Positions 4,925 through 30,373 of a DNA stretch of 64,000 nucleotides are shown here, piece after piece (the first letter of the stretch is position 1; each line of letters opens with the position of its first letter). Source of the stretch: Kordia zhangzhouensis (GTDB lineage Bacteria > Bacteroidota > Bacteroidia > Flavobacteriales > Flavobacteriaceae); NCBI RefSeq assembly GCF_001005305.1, contig NZ_LBMH01000003.1, positions 558,001 through 622,000 on the forward strand, in the 5' to 3' direction. Below the pieces are notes generated by a model, which saw only the letters and a program-made list of their open reading frames with translations, searched no databases and had not been told where the DNA came from. A program made the translations under genes and the position numbers.

Positions 4925-5098
4925 TTATCCACAAGTATAATTCACTGTATACTCACAACCTATCGCATTTGAAGTACACATAGTATCTTCCTGTGTTAAT
5001 ACACTTCTATTTCCTCCTTTAACACCTTGGGCACTTTGAGAATTCAACTCAGAAACTACCGATTTCTTTAATAACAATGATTTAAGATTTTTTTTCAT
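4925..5098 (-). CDS. GG-leader peptide (putative RiPP precursor), orphan
   Basis: A 57-residue peptide read on the reverse strand. It starts MKKNLKSLLLKKSVVSELN and has a double glycine at 28-29 within GVKGG, then a 28-residue core holding three cysteines (41, 48, 56) and several Thr/Ser. This matches the Bacteroidota 'GG leader natural product precursor' pattern: a basic MKK start, LK..K..V/IA.LN, then a KGG cleavage site. GG leaders are cut by C39 peptidase-type exporters. It stands alone between mgtE and a GNAT gene, with no modifying enzyme beside it. Its upstream stretch (5099-5387) shows no other gene. The sequence class is well supported; modification or activity is unknown. Confidence 0.75.
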   Translation of the reverse strand: MKKNLKSLLLKKSVVSELNSQSAQGVKGGNRSVLTQEDTMCTSNAIGCEYTVNYTCG

Positions 5099-25049: not shown

Positions 25050-26744
25050 ATGAGATTTTCGCTTTCTAGACTTTTAGCATGCTTCTTTTTTGTAGTAATG
25101 CACAATTATACGTGTGCTCAAGAAATGCCACAAAATGCTTCTTCCGAAGACATCCTTGCTTTTATCATTCAACAAAAACATTCCAATCCTGAACTGGCAA
25201 AAAAATATGCTAGCATTCTACTCGACAAAAGTAGAAATGCATATGATATTCGTGGTATTTTTGATGCTCATTTTCAAAATGCTCGAATTGCCACAATTGA
25301 AGGAGATTATTCACTTTCTATAAGTTATTGTGATTCTGCAATTCTATATGCTCATAAGCTCAAAAACAACTTTTCGCTTGCAGAATCTTATTTAACCAAA
25401 GGAACTGCTATTGTATACTTAGGCGACAATAAAGAAGCTTTAGCGATGTATCTCAAAGCTTTAGAAATTGCAAATCAACGGAATGATATTCAACTTAAAA
25501 TTAAAGCGACTGCTAATATTGCCAAGATTAAAAGACGCATGGAGTTTTTTGAAGAAGCTTTAGAAATTTATAAAACGAATGCAAATCTTGCCGAACAGTA
25601 TCAATTTAAAGATCCTCTCATCGCTATAAACTCTTACATGGGCATTGGTGGTACTTTTTTAAGGCTAAGGCAACCCGACTCAACTTTGCATTATTCTGAA
25701 ATTGGATTGCAAAAAAGCTTGGCAATTAATGACGCTGAAGGTGTTAGCTATTTCTATATTGATTTTGGAATTGCACATTTTATTAAAGGCGATTTTGAAC
25801 TTGCTATTGATTATTTAGAAAAGGCTGAAAAAATTACTAGAGGACTCAACAATCAAAAAAGGCTCACCGAAATTTATTACTACATCGGAAAATCATATTA
25901 TGAGCGTAAAGAATATCAAAAAGCTGTAACATATTTAAAAAAAGTAGAAACAATTGTAGCTGCTATTAATAAAGAAAACCCAAACGGTTTTAATCCTCCC
26001 GAATTATTAGGAACCTACAGAGCATTGGCTAACGCTTATGAAAAATTACAAGAAGAAGATGCCTATGCCCAGTATACGCAGAAGTTTTTTGAGCTCAATG
26101 AATATAATGAAAGTGAAAATATAGAAGTAATCAAAGATTTATATGAAACCGTACGTAAAGAAAATGACACGCTTTCATCATTGACAACAAAACTAGAGAG
26201 TAGGTTAATTTATATGGTACTATTTGCTGTTTTTGTTGTTGCACTATGTGCGTTTATTCTATTTAAATTAATCAAAGCTCGCAAGCAGAATAAAATTATT
26301 TTTGAAAAGTTGGTTTCACAAATTGAATCAACAAAAGAAGAGCCTGCTAAAAAAGACCTTATTATTGAAGATAAAAAAGTAGAAGAAATTTTAGACCGTT
26401 TAGATAAGTTAGAACAATCCTTATTCTTTTTAAGTAGTAATTGTACATTGCAAACACTTGCTAAAAAAGTAAAAACCAACACAACCTATTTATCTAAAAT
26501 CATAAGCACTTATAAAGAGAAAAAATTCTACGAATACATCAATGAATTACGAATTGAATATGTAGTAAAACGATTAAAAGAAGATCCTAAATTTAGAAAG
26601 TATTCCATCAAACACATTGCTGAAGAGATTGGTTATAAGAGTACAAATTCGTTTACCAAACATTTTAAAGCACACACTAAACTATATCCGTCCTATTACA
26701 TTAAAAATCTTGAAGATAACTCTAAAAAGAATACCTCAAATTAA
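25050..26744 (+). CDS. TPR - transmembrane - AraC-HTH regulator
   Basis: A 564-residue hybrid. It has a signal-like N-terminus (ends YTCAQE), then about seven TPR units across 60-340 (for example AEQYQFKDPLIAINSY, KGDFELAIDYLEKAEKI, YYERKEYQKAVTYLKKV). One membrane helix is LIYMVLFAVFVVALCAFILF (about 388-407). A cytoplasmic coiled segment precedes a C-terminal AraC-type HTH (about 455-555, TLAKKVKTNTTYLSKII and HIAEEIGYKSTNSFTKHFK). The periplasmic TPR part presumably senses a peptide or protein and controls the tethered DNA-binding domain. It is directly upstream of the GG-peptide cluster, which is suggestive but not proof of function. Confidence 0.88.
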   Translation: MRFSLSRLLACFFFVVMHNYTCAQEMPQNASSEDILAFIIQQKHSNPELAKKYASILLDKSRNAYDIRGIFDAHFQNARIATIEGDYSLSISYCDSAILYAHKLKNNFSLAESYLTKGTAIVYLGDNKEALAMYLKALEIANQRNDIQLKIKATANIAKIKRRMEFFEEALEIYKTNANLAEQYQFKDPLIAINSYMGIGGTFLRLRQPDSTLHYSEIGLQKSLAINDAEGVSYFYIDFGIAHFIKGDFELAIDYLEKAEKITRGLNNQKRLTEIYYYIGKSYYERKEYQKAVTYLKKVETIVAAINKENPNGFNPPELLGTYRALANAYEKLQEEDAYAQYTQKFFELNEYNESENIEVIKDLYETVRKENDTLSSLTTKLESRLIYMVLFAVFVVALCAFILFKLIKARKQNKIIFEKLVSQIESTKEEPAKKDLIIEDKKVEEILDRLDKLEQSLFFLSSNCTLQTLAKKVKTNTTYLSKIISTYKEKKFYEYINELRIEYVVKRLKEDPKFRKYSIKHIAEEIGYKSTNSFTKHFKAHTKLYPSYYIKNLEDNSKKNTSN

Positions 26745-26756
26745 ATAATTTGAGGT
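26733..26756 (+). terminator. Hairpin at the stop codon of the TPR-AraC gene
   Basis: A 10-bp perfect stem (ACCTCAAATT with AATTTGAGGT, loop AAAT) containing the TAA stop. No clear T-run follows, so it is a weak terminator or an mRNA-end structure. Confidence 0.4.
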
Positions 26757-26837: not shown

Positions 26838-26990
26838 ATGAAAGCAAAAAAACTTAAAAAAATCCATTTCAAAAAAGCTGTTATTGCAAAAATGAATAGT
26901 GTCGATGTTGAAAAGATTAAAGGAGGAACACGCTCTTTTGATCCTGAAACTGGGTTAGACACTCACTGTAAAGACTACATTTGTTTCTAA
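26838..26990 (+). CDS. GG-leader peptide B (putative RiPP precursor)
   Basis: A 50-residue peptide. The leader MKAKKLKKIHFKKAVIAKMN... ends at IKGG (Gly29-Gly30), a standard Bacteroidota GG-leader with LK/IA.L.N/IKGG features. The 20-residue core has two cysteines (44 and 49) near its end (HCKDYICF). It starts 94 bp after the TPR-AraC regulator and is followed by a strong terminator. No maturase is nearby. It may be a bacteriocin-like or signalling peptide; unmodified function is unknown. Confidence 0.78.
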   Translation: MKAKKLKKIHFKKAVIAKMNSVDVEKIKGGTRSFDPETGLDTHCKDYICF

Positions 26991-27022
26991 ATTATAGACT
27001 TTGTAATTTACATATGAAAAAC

Positions 27023-27046
27023 GGGGAGCAATACGCTCCCTTTTTT
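27023..27046 (+). terminator. Rho-independent terminator after peptide B
   Basis: GGGAGC, loop AATAC, GCTCCC and six T. Short but GC-rich and textbook. Confidence 0.88.
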
Positions 27047-27154
27047 ATGCAATAAACTCCCTCAATTCCTTCAATTTTTAAACGAAATGCGTTGTTTACA
27101 CTTTTATACGCTCCGTTTCTAATGTACTTTTAGAAAACAAAATTTACAGGAAAA

Positions 27155-27162
27155 TACATTTC
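27155..27162 (+). promoter_or_regulatory. -7-like element before peptide C
   Basis: TACATTTC resembles TAnnTTTG (last base differs), 37 nt before the ATG at 27200. Tentative. Confidence 0.3.
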
Positions 27163-27199
27163 CGAAATCTTAAATTATTAACTATAAATTATTTTAACC

Positions 27200-27355
27200 A
27201 TGAAAACTCAAAAAAGAAAATCTTTAAAATTCGTAAAAGCTTCTATTGCAAATTTAGATAAGCAAACATCACAAGAAATTAAAGGTGGAGTAACAGGATT
27301 TGCAGATTGTCATAGTAGAACTTCTTTGTGTATCACATCTTGTCACGTTCACTAA
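27200..27355 (+). CDS. GG-leader peptide C (putative RiPP precursor)
   Basis: A 51-residue peptide. The basic leader MKTQKRKSLKFVKASIANLD... ends at EIKGG (Gly29-Gly30). The 21-residue core carries three cysteines (37, 44, 48), with Ser/Thr and His (CHSRTSLCITSCHVH), so disulfides or thioether crosslinks are possible. Its leader aligns closely with that of peptide B (K-K..A.IA.L....IKGG). It is flanked by terminators on both sides. No identified enzyme in the window would modify it. Confidence 0.78.
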   Translation: MKTQKRKSLKFVKASIANLDKQTSQEIKGGVTGFADCHSRTSLCITSCHVH

Positions 27356-27378
27356 GAAGCAATATTTTATTTAGGTTG

Positions 27379-27409
27379 AAAAGCTCTTGTGTATACAAGA
27401 GCTTTTTTT
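27379..27409 (+). terminator. Bidirectional terminator between peptide C and the aminotransferase
   Basis: A perfect 12-bp stem (AAAAGCTCTTGT with ACAAGAGCTTTT), loop GTAT, with T-run. It also lies at the 3' end of the convergent aminotransferase gene. Confidence 0.92.
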
Positions 27410-28553
27410 ATATGGTATTTAAAATATTTGCAGCGGCAGCTAAGGTTTCCTCTGTTTTGGCAAAACAAAATCGCAACAATTGATGATTTTCTTTTTGTGC
27501 ATTAAAAACGGAAAGCGGAATGGAAGCTATTTTATGTGTTCGAGTTAATCTTTTGGCAAAGTCTACATCATACTCGTCTGTAATGTTCTCATACGAAAGA
27601 ACTTGAAAATAGGTTCCTTGAGAAGGTTTCCAAGTGAAACGTGAATCTTTGATTTTATCTAAAAAATAATCACGCTTTTGCTGAAAAAAAGCAGGAAGCT
27701 CCATATAATGCTTAGGAGTTTTTAAATATTTTCCAATCCCAATTTGCATAGGATGATTTACTGAAAACACATTGAATTGATGAACTTTTTTAAACTCTTC
27801 CATTAGTGGTTTTGGCGCAACACAATAGCCTATTTTCCATCCTGTATTGTGAAATGTCTTTCCAAAAGAAGCTGTAATAAATGCTCGTTCAGCCAGTTTG
27901 GGATGTAATGCCGCACTTTGATGTGGTACTCCGTCAAAAATTATATGTTCGTATACCTCATCACTCAGCAAAATAATATCAGTGTTTTCTAAAATAATGG
28001 ACAATTCACGCATATCGTCCTCAGACAAAACTGTTCCACTAGGATTATGAGGTGTGTTAATAATAAGCATTTTTGTTTTGGAAGAAATTTTACTTCGTAC
28101 TTCGTCCCAATCAACTGAAAATTCTTTTCCTCGAAGCTGAATAGGCACAACTTTTCCTCCATGCGTTTCTATTGCAGGCGCATAACAATCATAAGCAGGT
28201 GTAAAAATAATAACTTCATCTTTAGGACGAATAAAAGCACTTATAATAGTAAATATTGCTTGTGTAGCTCCTGCTGTTACCACAATTTCAGTATCTGGAT
28301 TATAAACGCGTTGATACAGAAGTTCCATTTTTTCTGCAATCGCTTCTCTCAAAATTGACGCACCTGGCATTGGTGCATACTGATTGTAATTTTCACGCAA
28401 GGCTTGTTGCACCATTCCTATCAATTTTGGATCAGATGGGAAATTTGGAAAACCTTGTGATAGATTGATTGCGTTTTCTTTAGCAGCTAATTGACTCATT
28501 ACCGTAAAAATGGTAGTTCCTACATTGGGTAATTTGGAAGTATGTTGAATCAT
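27408..28553 (-). CDS. PLP-dependent aminotransferase (methionine/kynurenine type)
   Basis: A 381-residue fold-type I aminotransferase. The family start VGTTIFTVMSQLAAKENAINLSQGFP (in part), TAGATQAIF, and the PLP Lys in ITASFGKTFHNTGWK are all present. Substrate-contacting regions NTPHNPSG and SDEVYEH are conserved. It is closest to the YbdL methionine aminotransferase / kynurenine-oxoglutarate transaminase group; which amino acid is used cannot be told. It is an ordinary gene sitting inside the peptide cluster on the other strand. Confidence 0.92.
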   Translation of the reverse strand: MIQHTSKLPNVGTTIFTVMSQLAAKENAINLSQGFPNFPSDPKLIGMVQQALRENYNQYAPMPGASILREAIAEKMELLYQRVYNPDTEIVVTAGATQAIFTIISAFIRPKDEVIIFTPAYDCYAPAIETHGGKVVPIQLRGKEFSVDWDEVRSKISSKTKMLIINTPHNPSGTVLSEDDMRELSIILENTDIILLSDEVYEHIIFDGVPHQSAALHPKLAERAFITASFGKTFHNTGWKIGYCVAPKPLMEEFKKVHQFNVFSVNHPMQIGIGKYLKTPKHYMELPAFFQQKRDYFLDKIKDSRFTWKPSQGTYFQVLSYENITDEYDVDFAKRLTRTHKIASIPLSVFNAQKENHQLLRFCFAKTEETLAAAANILNTI

Positions 28554-28758
28554 GTAATTCTTAGGTTTTTTTGACTCGTATTGTATTAATTATAATGTGA
28601 GTCTCAATTATCAAAACAAATTTTTAACGATTTATAATATGAAAAGACGTCATTATTCTCTGCTAAAAGTCGTGATTTTAGTCCACTTTAAAAAAAGAAA
28701 CGTAGAAAAATAAAAGGCTTGTGAGTGTATTCAATTATTCCTTTCCTGTAATTGCATT

Positions 28759-28777
28759 AGTACGGTAAACCCGTACT
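28759..28777 (+). promoter_or_regulatory. Inverted repeat upstream of peptide D
   Basis: AGTACGG - TAAAC - CCGTACT is a perfect 7-bp inverted repeat, 55-73 nt before the peptide D start. A TATTATTTTG promoter-like stretch follows at 28801-28810. Probably a regulator site; it has no T-run and is unlikely to be a terminator. Confidence 0.35.
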
Positions 28778-28831
28778 TAAACTTTAGAAAAAAAGCGTAT
28801 TATTATTTTGGTAATCAAAAACTTATACATC

Positions 28832-29044
28832 ATGAAAAAAAGAAAAGCAAACCCTTTAAAACTTCATAAGAATGCTGTTGCCAATTTTCCTCTCCATTCA
28901 ATGTATGGAGGCGCAGACGATGCAGAAGTGACAGTTACTTGTTTTACTAAGTTGGATGCTTGCAATACTAGAGACGTTATTAGATGCCAAACTGGCGATG
29001 CATGTCCAAGCGTATATGCCTGTCCGTCTTTTGTAAGATGCTAG
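28832..29044 (+). CDS. GG-leader peptide D, six-cysteine core
   Basis: A 70-residue peptide. The short leader MKKRKANPLKLHKNAVANFP... ends at MYGG (Gly26-Gly27), with the LK..K.AVA pattern of the family but Tyr before the double Gly. The 43-residue core has six cysteines (37, 44, 52, 58, 63, 70) and several Thr/Ser. The frame can be extended upstream to TTG 28808, but that TTG is part of a -7-like TATTTTG; ATG 28832 gives the family leader. A long imperfect terminator follows. Function unknown. Confidence 0.75.
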   Translation: MKKRKANPLKLHKNAVANFPLHSMYGGADDAEVTVTCFTKLDACNTRDVIRCQTGDACPSVYACPSFVRC

Positions 29045-29069
29045 TATATATGTATTAGATTTTTTCTGG

Positions 29070-29117
29070 CTAGAATCTTTTCTGTTGAAAACAAAAAAGC
29101 ATTTCTAGAGGTTTTTT
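29070..29117 (+). terminator. Terminator of peptide D
   Basis: A long imperfect hairpin: CTAGAA with TTCTAG outside, CTTTT/AAAAAG inside, with small bulges. It is followed by GTTTTTT. Confidence 0.6.
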
Positions 29118-29168
29118 ATATGTCTTTTTTTAATAGAAAAGAAGGATTTTTTATTCTAGTTCTATTCG

Positions 29169-29190
29169 GTGGCACTTTATAAAATGTCAC
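29169..29190. promoter_or_regulatory. Operator-like palindrome, copy 1
   Basis: GTGGCACTTTATAAAATGTCAC: 11-bp arms with two mismatches, centred between 29179 and 29180. It shares 17 of 20 positions with copy 2 (TGryACTTTATAAArTGTCA). A TAATTTTT -7-like stretch begins 2 bp after it, but no gene follows within reach. Confidence 0.5.
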
Positions 29191-29341
29191 TTAATTTTTT
29201 ACGCTCAGCAACACTATATTGAGAAGAAAATATTTAATACAAATGCTTAATTTTCAGTAATTTAAAATTTTAAATATTGAAAACACAATCACTGTTTTTT
29301 TCATAAAAAGAGACATTAAAAATTACTTTAAAATTCACCGC

Positions 29342-29361
29342 TGATACTTTATAAAGTGTCA
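29342..29361. promoter_or_regulatory. Operator-like palindrome, copy 2
   Basis: TGATACTTTATAAAGTGTCA: 10-bp arms with one wobble mismatch. It sits 6 bp upstream of the exact -7 box, that is over the -33 region of the peptide E promoter. A repressor or a competitor for RNA polymerase would act there. Confidence 0.55.
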
Positions 29362-29367
29362 CACACA

Positions 29368-29375
29368 TACTTTTG
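29368..29375 (+). promoter_or_regulatory. -7 element of peptide E promoter
   Basis: TACTTTTG matches TAnnTTTG exactly; the leader to the ATG at 29435 would be about 55 nt. The usual -33 TTG is absent, and the place is taken by palindrome copy 2, suggesting activator-dependence or repression. Confidence 0.55.
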
Positions 29376-29434
29376 AAGCTACTTTTTTTTATCATTCCTT
29401 TGATTCATTGTTTAACCACAAAAATCAAAACAGT

Positions 29435-29701
29435 ATGAAAAAAAATAGTTTTAAGAAAATTGCTTTAAATAAAAAAACAATTTCTATAATCAACGGAAGA
29501 ACCATTCATGGAGGAGCTTTGCCTTCAAATTATGCAAACCATGGAAATTATTCAGATGTTCCTTCAGAATTAGTAACACTTCCTGTTGCTACTAACTGTC
29601 CGACAGATACTTTCGAACTATCTTGTATTTGTGGTGGCGCTGCTGACGATACAAAGCAAGATCCAGGGCAACATCAGCAAGACCCAATACGAAATAGATA
29701 A
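29435..29701 (+). CDS. GG-leader peptide E, long core
   Basis: An 88-residue peptide. The leader MKKNSFKKIALNKKTISIIN... ends at IHGG (Gly26-Gly27). The 61-residue core is rich in Pro, Asn and Thr and has only three cysteines (54, 64, 66 approximately), two of them in CICGG, plus a Gln/Pro/Asp-rich tail. It is the largest of the peptides and differs from the short ones. The frame can be extended to TTG 29408, which I reject in favour of ATG 29435. Own promoter with operator-like palindrome. Function unknown. Confidence 0.7.
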   Translation: MKKNSFKKIALNKKTISIINGRTIHGGALPSNYANHGNYSDVPSELVTLPVATNCPTDTFELSCICGGAADDTKQDPGQHQQDPIRNR

Positions 29702-29764: not shown

Positions 29765-30373
29765 TTAGTGCAACGTTTCTAGAATTTCTTCTAGGTTTTT
29801 GATAATTGGAACAACATCTTTGTTGTTCTTTTTTTGTTTTTTTCGTGTGACTATAAAGCCCACAAATAATAACCAACCATATGTAAATGTGTGGATAAGT
29901 ATTTTGTATGAAAGAGTAACATTTCGCAAAGTATCTTGAAAATAAATAGTGATTCCAATAGCTAATAATATCAGATATACAGGCATGAAAAAGTTTGTAA
30001 TCCACACAAAGTAGCGCAGTTTTTTTAGCATTTTTACAGCAAATTCTTTCATATTTTCAGAAATGTTGTTTGGTGTTCTCCAAAATAGTACCCGATACCA
30101 CATCATTATTAGTGTAACGATTAATAAAATAAACATAAATGTAAGTGCGAGATAAAAATTATCTGAACGTTCTTTGAGTGGATTGGCTTTCCACAACCAA
30201 ATAAAAACGGCAAACACGGTGGCAAATGAAATACTCATAAGTAAGTTTCCAAATACAATTTTTCGTTGTAGTTTTTTAAGTTTTTCGAATAATGAATTTG
30301 TTTCTTTTCCAACCTCGGTTTTACTTGAAACAACCAAATTCCAATCGTTTATCATGTCGTTAAAATCCTTCAT
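29765..30373 (-). CDS. Multi-TM protein co-encoded with ECF sigma factor
   Basis: A 202-residue protein with four hydrophobic helices in two pairs (about 40-62, 72-95, 125-147, 155-178). It has a soluble N-terminal part (1-38) and a basic C-terminus. It overlaps the end of the sigma-factor gene by 14 nt, the typical position of an anti-sigma factor. I do not see a zinc-finger ZAS motif (HxxxCxxC) or FecR domain, so if it is an anti-sigma factor it is an atypical one. No family recognised. Confidence 0.7.
   Translation of the reverse strand: MKDFNDMINDWNLVVSSKTEVGKETNSLFEKLKKLQRKIVFGNLLMSISFATVFAVFIWLWKANPLKERSDNFYLALTFMFILLIVTLIMMWYRVLFWRTPNNISENMKEFAVKMLKKLRYFVWITNFFMPVYLILLAIGITIYFQDTLRNVTLSYKILIHTFTYGWLLFVGFIVTRKKQKKNNKDVVPIIKNLEEILETLH

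Follow-up and report, generated by a model that had tools for sequence, protein, structure and literature searches.

The window analysed here, a stretch of 64,000 nucleotides from Kordia zhangzhouensis, holds the gene of a one-component membrane regulator that joins tetratricopeptide repeats (TPRs), a transmembrane (TM) helix and an AraC-type DNA-binding domain, four short genes for peptides whose leaders end in a double glycine (GG; peptides 1 to 4), and a gene for an extracytoplasmic function (ECF) sigma factor. All of these lie inside the window, and window coordinates are positions within it (Table 1). The original prediction, a note made from these letters alone, had described four frames with Lys-rich GG leaders and Cys-bearing cores near a TPR/AraC membrane protein and an ECF sigma factor, and all are present as described. 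The leaders of peptides 1 to 4 are 27-30 residues long, and the cores, each with Ser/Thr and Cys, have 2, 3, 6 and 3 Cys residues, respectively. The frames had also been placed directly downstream of the regulator, which is correct for peptides 1 and 2; peptides 3 and 4 are separated from it by a minus-strand aminotransferase gene.

The four peptides belong to a family of some 130 precursors, scattered over the genome, whose leader is of the class I lanthipeptide type. In the 4.03-Mb genome, NF038153, a model of such leaders, has 72 matches at E ≤ 1, 12 of them over its cut-off; 68 were read as leader peptides, and four were dropped (three not leader-like, one not retrieved). Using a leader profile built from these 68 and from leaders found beside regulators, we obtained 136 matches at E ≤ 1 and 129 at E ≤ 0.01. 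Among the 128 precursors that were read, 127 have Cys and Ser/Thr in the core, three lack a clear GG-type site, and the cores comprise 11.4% Cys, 12.2% Thr and 6.8% Ser. The catalogue leaves out the leader matches C12:72241 and C1:65957 and keeps the doubtful C33:444745, which has no GG and no Cys. Peptides 1, 2 and 4 score 16.4, 20.6 and 12.3 bits with NF038153, to which peptide 3 has no match; with our own profile all four score 29.7-35.4 bits (E 8.1e-8 to 4.7e-6), high by construction because all were training members. No Pfam match to a Nif11 leader was found in peptides 1 to 4. Ten other Kordia genomes have 133 to at least 150 leader matches each (among the best 150 candidates per genome), and 231 of 249 Flavobacteriaceae genomes have no match at E ≤ 0.01 (among the best 33 candidates per genome). 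The profile is specific, with no matches in the reversed DNA of 101 regulator loci versus 195 in the real DNA at 14 bits and 206 at 8 bits. Elsewhere in this family, at C22:634477-635023, two tandem precursors have cores of CPxxT-like repeats with 8 and 9 Cys.

The regulator also belongs to a large family. At E ≤ 1e-30 there are 13 matches in this genome, itself included, all full-length TPR-TM-AraC genes, and 13-45 in other Kordia genomes (among the best 127 candidates per genome). An AlphaFold2 model of the window regulator (mean predicted local distance difference test score 80.7) predicts an N-terminal hydrophobic helix, a TPR superhelix at residues ~32-350, a probable TM helix within residues 384-425 and an AraC-type helix-turn-helix (HTH) domain at ~441-562. 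In a fold search with the TPR part of the model, eukaryotic LGN TPR complexes were closest and Rap-CSF came at rank 41; the resemblance is thus to TPR folds that bind peptides, which is compatible with peptide sensing but does not show it.

We examined 101 of these regulators, 13 from this genome and 88 from ten other Kordia genomes, chosen among the best-listed matches and not at random. A leader gene on the same strand begins within 200 bp downstream, measured from the end of the match, in 89 of the 101 at 8 bits or more (median 102 bp, range 74-162) and in 78 at 14 bits or more; within 600 bp the counts are 94 and 87. Reversed DNA of the same loci gave no pairings, and two loci where the search missed it (L118 and L180) have a downstream leader gene by eye. 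For the 13 regulators of this genome, the leader gene lies within 200 bp in 11 and within 600 bp in 12. The coevolution, palindrome, position and grouping analyses below cover 91 pairs, ten regulators without a usable linked peptide being left out. In all 91 regulators a hydrophobic segment stands at the place of the TM helix (19-residue hydropathy of at least 1.64), and 79 have a hydrophobic N-terminus.

The pairing is conserved at this locus and extends beyond the genus. Orthologues of the window regulator occur in ten of ten other Kordia genomes (63-77% identity), each followed at 87-95 bp by a homologue of peptide 1 whose core starts with TR, has two Cys and ends in Tyr or Phe. From 436-507 bp onwards, within the flank examined, between two and five more leader genes follow at these loci, and most of them resemble peptide 2, with endings such as SCHAH or SCVVH; the window has one, peptide 2. 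The absence of homologous GG leaders in relatives, which the original prediction had named as grounds for refutation, is contradicted by intact homologues of peptides 1 and 2 in all ten genomes. Outside Kordia, 16 genomes with the lanthipeptide enzyme gene LanB and 25 without it had a regulator match; we took one regulator from each of 14 genomes of either kind and applied the same permissive leader score, 5 bits, to the two sets. A leader gene lies downstream in 11 of the 14 LanB-bearing cases (ten at 94-140 bp) versus none of the 14 LanB-less ones, so that the receptor class is not always linked to a peptide.

Between regulator and peptide gene lie palindromes of about 18-28 bp, which differ between regulator subfamilies. 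They came to light through RNA folding of the intergenic regions, where the signal was weak (mean z -0.84, 21 of 88 below -2), and we read them as putative DNA sites rather than RNA structures. A palindrome score of at least 9 is reached in 46 of 91 pairs versus a mean of 5.0 and a maximum of 10 in 20 dinucleotide shuffles. Relative to the peptide ATG the palindrome centres have a median of -82 (quartiles -88 and -78) and a standard deviation of 10.7, as against 33 relative to the regulator stop. The interval from -100 to -70 contains a palindrome in 44 of 91 pairs, or 16 of 35 groups by TPR similarity, while -160 to -130 has none by either count and -65 to -35 one by each; shuffles give means of 1.3 pairs and 1.2 groups at -100 to -70, with a group maximum of 4. 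Since it is the peptide ATG, rather than the regulator stop, that fixes their position, the palindromes seem to be part of the peptide promoter, even where they overlap the last codons of the regulator, as in the window. Upstream of all peptides of this genome, palindromes were found in 18 of 128 cases (5.6 in shuffles). Word counts against 62 control genes revealed no word shared by all precursor upstream regions of the genome (best p 1.4e-4 among ~245,000 words), and TAnnTTTG, which we take to be a Bacteroidetes promoter element, is rarer before the peptides (18 of 128) than before the control genes (18 of 62).

The palindromes also recur before precursor genes far from any regulator. With at most one mismatch, the core of the window palindrome has 35 sites, in all 11 Kordia genomes, versus two for the reversed pattern. 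Fourteen lie at the 3' ends of orthologous regulators and tandem paralogues (three genomes). Of the remaining 21, which are away from regulators, 15 precede a GG-leader gene by 74-132 bp, and the seven exact ones all do so by 74-98 bp; two of the 14 leader-associated sites in other genomes belong to second peptides at C3-type regulator loci. In this genome the remote site at 94458 on contig C39, with 3 mismatches to the 20 informative bases of the longer site, has its centre 98 bp before the unlinked precursor C39:94566. Remote precursors with a window-type site include a family with the core ...(V/A)DLC(Y/F)G(V/A)QTS... in seven genomes, this one among them, and one with ...GPLLCGATSV... in three. 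For another module, that of the regulator at C22:217102, copies of the palindrome with 2-3 mismatches stand at -79 to -81 of three more precursors of this genome, where shuffles come no closer than 6 mismatches; two of these precursors are distant, and the third is divergent and lies immediately upstream of that regulator. In a comparison of centre elements using 127 of the 128 catalogued precursors, 17 of 115 unlinked precursors have a TTTATAAA centre between -70 and -90, versus 0 to 3 in 20-bp intervals away from it and none of 62 control genes at that distance. Peptide 4 of the window has an element of this kind at -83. The same putative operator would thus stand before the linked peptide and unlinked precursor genes, as in pheromone-controlled bacteriocin regulons.

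The enzymes lie elsewhere. The only match to Lant_dehydr_C (LanB-C) in the genome is on contig C12, in a cluster that we call the hub: a sigma-70 factor, a TPR protein, LanC, LanB-N, LanB-C, a TPR-TM-AraC regulator and two precursors, with HlyD and C39-ABC (ATP-binding cassette) genes on the opposite strand. The original prediction had supposed orphan precursors matured by enzymes elsewhere and had suggested looking for LanB, LanC and C39 genes; finding these together on another contig supports that view well. Leaders of the same family lie inside the hub, and the 127 catalogued leaders are spread over 17 contigs. Hub gene order is kept in eight of eight Kordia-labelled loci, some with one or two regulators and extra leaders, and LanB-C is 90-94% identical to eight Kordia-labelled records. 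Among 249 Flavobacteriaceae genomes sampled, 21 have LanB-C; leaders occur in 13 of these (two being Kordia) versus 5 of the 228 without it, with one match each in the latter (best 33 candidates per genome). In at least 10 of the 21, LanB-C is followed on its own strand by a TPR-TM-AraC gene that begins no more than about 310 bp away (best five regulator candidates per genome). The uniqueness of the enzyme, the conservation of the hub and the co-occurrence of leaders with LanB suggest that the window peptides are probably matured by the hub.

Several neighbouring or related genes are recorded here in their own right. The sigma-70 factor and TPR protein upstream of LanC (L037:5017-6446), kept in eight of eight Kordia hub loci, are candidate regulators of the enzymes. 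Beside the hub are minus-strand genes for a subtilase (S8; L037:3255-4583), with S8 matches in eight of eight Kordia hub loci, and a TPR-CHAT protein (L037:293-3055); the subtilase is a possible extra maturation protease. The genome has three LANC_like matches. One of the two outside the hub, at C1:109394 (L039:6065-10480), is accompanied by an APH-like gene, a HopA1-family domain gene and a repeat protein rich in GPTGTQGCT, without LanB-C, and is perhaps part of another system for ribosomally synthesized and post-translationally modified peptides (RiPPs); the other, at C12:70462, is partial, with one leader gene nearby. Neither was taken as the main maturase, because the sole LanB-C match lies at the hub. 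A VKOR protein with a C39-like domain (L040:1807-4110, on C1) sits between two small GG-type peptides and may handle disulphides or cleavage for some precursors.

Table 1. Features of the window and their positions in the 64,000-nucleotide stretch
Feature	Position	Strand	Description
TPR-TM-AraC one-component membrane regulator	25050-26744	+	564 amino acids; Pfam TPR_12 and HTH_18
Putative operator	26733-26756		Palindrome ACCTCAAATT-AAAT-AATTTGAGGT; overlaps the end of the regulator gene; centre 93 bp before the ATG of peptide 1
Peptide 1	26838-26990	+	50 amino acids; regulator-linked GG-leader peptide, candidate signal
Intrinsic-terminator-like hairpin	27023-27041	+	After peptide 1
Peptide 2	27200-27355	+	51 amino acids; GG-leader peptide, core ...CITSCHVH
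Inverted repeat with T-run	27379-27406	+	Terminator-like; after peptide 2
Class I/II aminotransferase gene	27408-28553	-	Pfam; between peptides 2 and 3
Peptide 3	28832-29044	+	70 amino acids; GG-leader peptide, 6 Cys in core
Second hub-type palindrome	29168-29191		GGTGGCACTTTATAAAATGTCACT; in the gap from peptide 3 to peptide 4; no peptide of the catalogue starts at a distance of 40-140 bp
Operator-like element	29340-29363		GCTGATACTTTATAAAGTGTCACA; centred at -83 from the ATG of peptide 4; similar to the palindrome of the hub regulator; tentative
Peptide 4	29435-29701	+	88 amino acids; GG-leader peptide
ECF sigma factor partner gene	29765-30373		Without convincing Pfam family; membrane protein by eye only
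Fifth GG-leader peptide	4925-5098 (C22:562925-563098)	-	57 amino acids; same family, found with our own leader profile; missing from the original prediction

Within the window, the element before peptide 4 differs from the hub site at 5 positions, no better than the best match in shuffles, and from a symmetrised form of that site at 3, and is not significant alone. An inverted repeat, AGTACGG-N5-CCGTACT, lies at 28759-28777, its centre (by eye) at about -64 from the ATG of peptide 3 and outside the interval from -70 to -100. The individual promoter or terminator signals ascribed to the four genes hold in part: separate signals are seen for peptides 1 and 2, because a terminator-like structure follows each, whereas a sigma-70-type promoter scan found 10 sites versus 15.8 in shuffles, that is, no excess. 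The ECF sigma factor was rejected as a regulator of the peptides; its gene pair is convergent with peptide 4, and no linking evidence was found. The membrane nature ascribed to its partner is apparent by eye only.

These observations lead us to propose, with a probability of roughly 60%, that the window is one module of a genome-wide network in which each regulator-peptide pair is a circuit that also controls unlinked precursors, the linked peptide being its likely signal. The TPR-TM-AraC protein would bind its private palindrome 70-100 bp upstream of the adjacent peptide gene and would control that gene, most likely by activation; the same site before unlinked GG-leader precursors would put those genes under the same switch. 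Such binding and control very probably take place, as the sequence evidence strongly suggests. The precursors would be substrates of the class I lanthipeptide type, which the hub would modify with its split LanB and its LanC, then cut at the GG and export through its C39-ABC/HlyD pair. The exported linked peptide, here peptide 1, would then be sensed by the extracytoplasmic TPR domain of the regulator, a step to which we give an even chance, and the Cys-richer unlinked peptides would be effectors. A broader version, in which every cell of Kordia and of related flavobacteria with LanB has from a dozen to dozens of peptide-signalling channels in parallel, each with a single-protein receptor reading its adjacent GG-leader peptide, a private palindrome firing that peptide and chosen unlinked precursors, and all sharing one hub, is more tentative still and falls slightly short of even odds.

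The linked peptides differ from the rest of the family. Their cores have a median of 2 Cys (91 peptides from 11 genomes; also 2 for those of this genome alone) versus 4 for 116 unlinked peptides of this genome, and the Cys fractions differ at p=5e-20, a value from samples that are not independent. The similarity of the cores correlates with that of the TPR domains (r=0.71; maximum after permutation 0.066), and the partial correlation given the HTH is 0.50 over all pairs. Operator similarity follows HTH similarity (r=0.695, permuted maximum 0.194), with partials over all pairs of 0.308 for the HTH and 0.212 for the TPR domain. The original prediction had the peptides as possible signals sensed by the TPR regulator. 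Structurally this is supported for peptide 1, which stands together with regulator and palindrome in 11 of 11 Kordia genomes, the palindrome recurring before unlinked precursors; the support does not extend to all four, as no matching palindrome precedes peptides 2 and 3, and the element before peptide 4 is weak and of another type. The earlier reading had caught something genuine, and its guess about peptide 1 went in a good direction; beyond its view lay the hub, how large the family is, the regulator-peptide pairing, and the palindromes with their copies upstream of remote precursors.

A number of observations weigh against the proposed network. Binding, control, maturation and sensing are all steps read from sequence only. 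Six of the 101 regulators (L087, L141, L147, L164, L173 and L187) have no downstream peptide by search or eye, three of which (L141, L164 and L187) form one orthologous group with 55-62% identity, and the pair counts are not independent, because the 91 usable pairs collapse to 35 groups by TPR similarity. A strong palindrome at -100 to -70 is missing from 47 of the 91 pairs, the 116 unlinked peptides of this genome, when pooled, have no palindrome peak there, and 9 of 62 control genes also have upstream palindromes, counted irrespective of position (2.6 in shuffles). Six of the 21 window-type sites away from regulators, each with a mismatch, have no leader gene, and in the window itself no matching operator precedes peptides 2 and 3. 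None of peptides 1 to 4 reaches the NCBI leader cut-off (22 bits). The enzyme search covered LanB, LanC and C39 genes only, and three LanB loci of an uncultured flavobacterium and Psychroserpens (L102-L104) have the enzymes and several leaders but in none of the three a regulator within the 10-kb flanks. Outside Kordia, 4 of 11 linked peptides have no Cys and cannot form lanthionine rings, so that a lanthionine product is not a common trait of linked peptides. Among distant pairs, the preference of the core for TPR over HTH is gone (partials 0.107 and 0.160) and operator similarity follows TPR and HTH about equally (0.249 and 0.239). Because these domain preferences vanish, shared descent explains much of the correlations, which would nevertheless fit a peptide-TPR-HTH-operator circuit.

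The same data can be read in other ways. The regulators might act through the palindromes but sense a different cue (from algae, from a nutrient or from envelope stress), in which case the linked peptide would be just a first target and all peptides would be effectors of a regulated bacteriocin bank. The rank of the eukaryotic LGN domains above Rap-CSF in the fold search, the peptide-less relatives in LanB-less genomes (0 of 14 with a leader) and the failure of coevolution to single out the TPR domain among distant pairs would all suit such an arrangement. We consider it unlikely, since a peptide gene stands beside nearly every one of the 101 regulator copies and the linked cores are conserved at orthologous loci; the lower Cys content of the linked class, down to Cys-less peptides outside Kordia, also fits a signal better than a lanthipeptide effector. 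The original prediction had itself offered a bacteriocin bank as its alternative, and this may hold for the Cys-richer unlinked peptides. The palindromes themselves could be taken as terminators of the regulator genes, and the pairing as mere co-location. They do lie just behind the regulators, the window palindrome was listed as terminator-like on the minus strand, and 9 of 62 control genes have one upstream as well. Their position, however, is tied to the peptide start rather than the regulator stop, and the window palindrome overlaps the regulator end, lacks a T-run on the coding strand and recurs before unlinked precursors, which leaves terminators very improbable.

Two further alternatives concern the precursors rather than their control. 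Substrates of radical S-adenosylmethionine (rSAM) or other enzymes, in place of LanB and LanC, are hinted at by weak matches of peptide 1 (18 bits) and peptide 2 (17.2 bits) to TIGR04149, a model of rSAM-modified RiPPs with a cut-off of 25, and by the parts we cite of an ocean survey that assigns both lanthipeptide and rSAM classes to Kordia (PMC11118758). The leaders nonetheless track LanB over the 249 genomes, the hub holds the same leaders, and the cores are rich in Thr, Ser and Cys; with LanB, LanC and C39 as the enzymes searched for, we regard this alternative as improbable. Their shortness and the AT-rich genome might suggest that the four frames arose by chance or are what is left of decayed genes. 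With no match in reversed DNA, and with peptides 1 and 2 intact at ten of ten orthologous loci, the chance of this is close to nil; it was already unlikely for those two, while for peptides 3 and 4 it is the family profile that speaks for genuine genes.

Parts of this picture are already in print, as far as the portions of the sources cited here go. The richness of Kordia in RiPP precursors has been published: the ocean survey, which gives Kordia as an example, counts as many as 176 RiPP precursors on one Bacteroidota genome, while its portions cited describe no regulator, operator or shared-enzyme network and 'AraC' is nowhere in its main text (PMC11118758). GG-leader class I lanthipeptides of Bacteroidetes, dispersed prochlorosin libraries and the idea of a TPR pheromone receptor in Bacteroidales are likewise known (PMC7268733, PMC10783134, PMC10352776). 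The class I lanthipeptides of Bacteroidetes have an LxLxKx5L leader motif, and many are GG-ended with a C39 protease in the cluster (PMC7268733). Our system shares with them the leader motif, GG site, LanB, LanC and C39 exporter; unlike there, nearly all precursors are far from the enzymes, they number about 130 or more per genome, and a TPR-TM-AraC family is attached. Prochlorosins and synechococsins reach 83 and 79 precursors in the two richest strains, their biological function is called unknown, and the account we draw on mentions, in its cited parts, regulators near some clusters but no paired receptor and operator (PMC10783134). Many dispersed precursors, diverse cores and very few enzymes are common to both systems, whereas prochlorosins have a ProcM-type class II enzyme and Nif11-family leaders in place of LanB/LanC and the leader found here. 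Among Bacteroidales RiPP clusters, two have TPR-domain genes and another an HTH gene, and the TPR protein was suggested, by reference to other bacteria, to regulate after pheromone binding; these are separate genes in LanB-less clusters, and no fused TPR-TM-AraC protein, one-to-one pairing or operator is described in the parts cited (PMC10352776). In the open-access papers searched, which leave most subscription journals aside, we found no description of the regulator-peptide-operator pairing or of the receptor architecture.

To the question of what large dispersed lanthipeptide libraries do and how they are controlled, sequence contributes a partial wiring diagram from regulator to peptide to DNA site and, for the window module, to remote precursors. 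Should the linked peptide be the ligand, the system would represent a class of peptide signalling in Bacteroidota and supply many receptor-operator pairs; if the channels run in parallel, it would be a new class of Gram-negative peptide quorum sensing, with a wiring diagram for a combinatorial lanthipeptide library.

The arrangement resembles two well-known kinds of peptide system. In Gram-positive pheromone-controlled bacteriocin regulons of the plantaricin and Blp/Com type, the inducer gene lies beside its receptor, the same operator precedes inducer and unlinked effectors, and a histidine kinase and response regulator transmit the signal. The peptide gene beside the receptor and the operator shared with unlinked genes are alike in Kordia, but there a single membrane protein joins TPR and AraC domains, and in a Gram-negative. 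The RRNPP regulators (Rap, PlcR, PrgX) are cytoplasmic TPR receptors that read short re-imported peptides. A TPR superhelix and a linked peptide gene are common to both, whereas the hydrophobic N-terminus and TM helix of the Kordia proteins suggest a TPR domain outside the cytoplasm, and their DNA-binding domain is AraC-type; because of these three features, the analogy with TPR-peptide systems of Firmicutes drawn in the original prediction is limited to the fold class.

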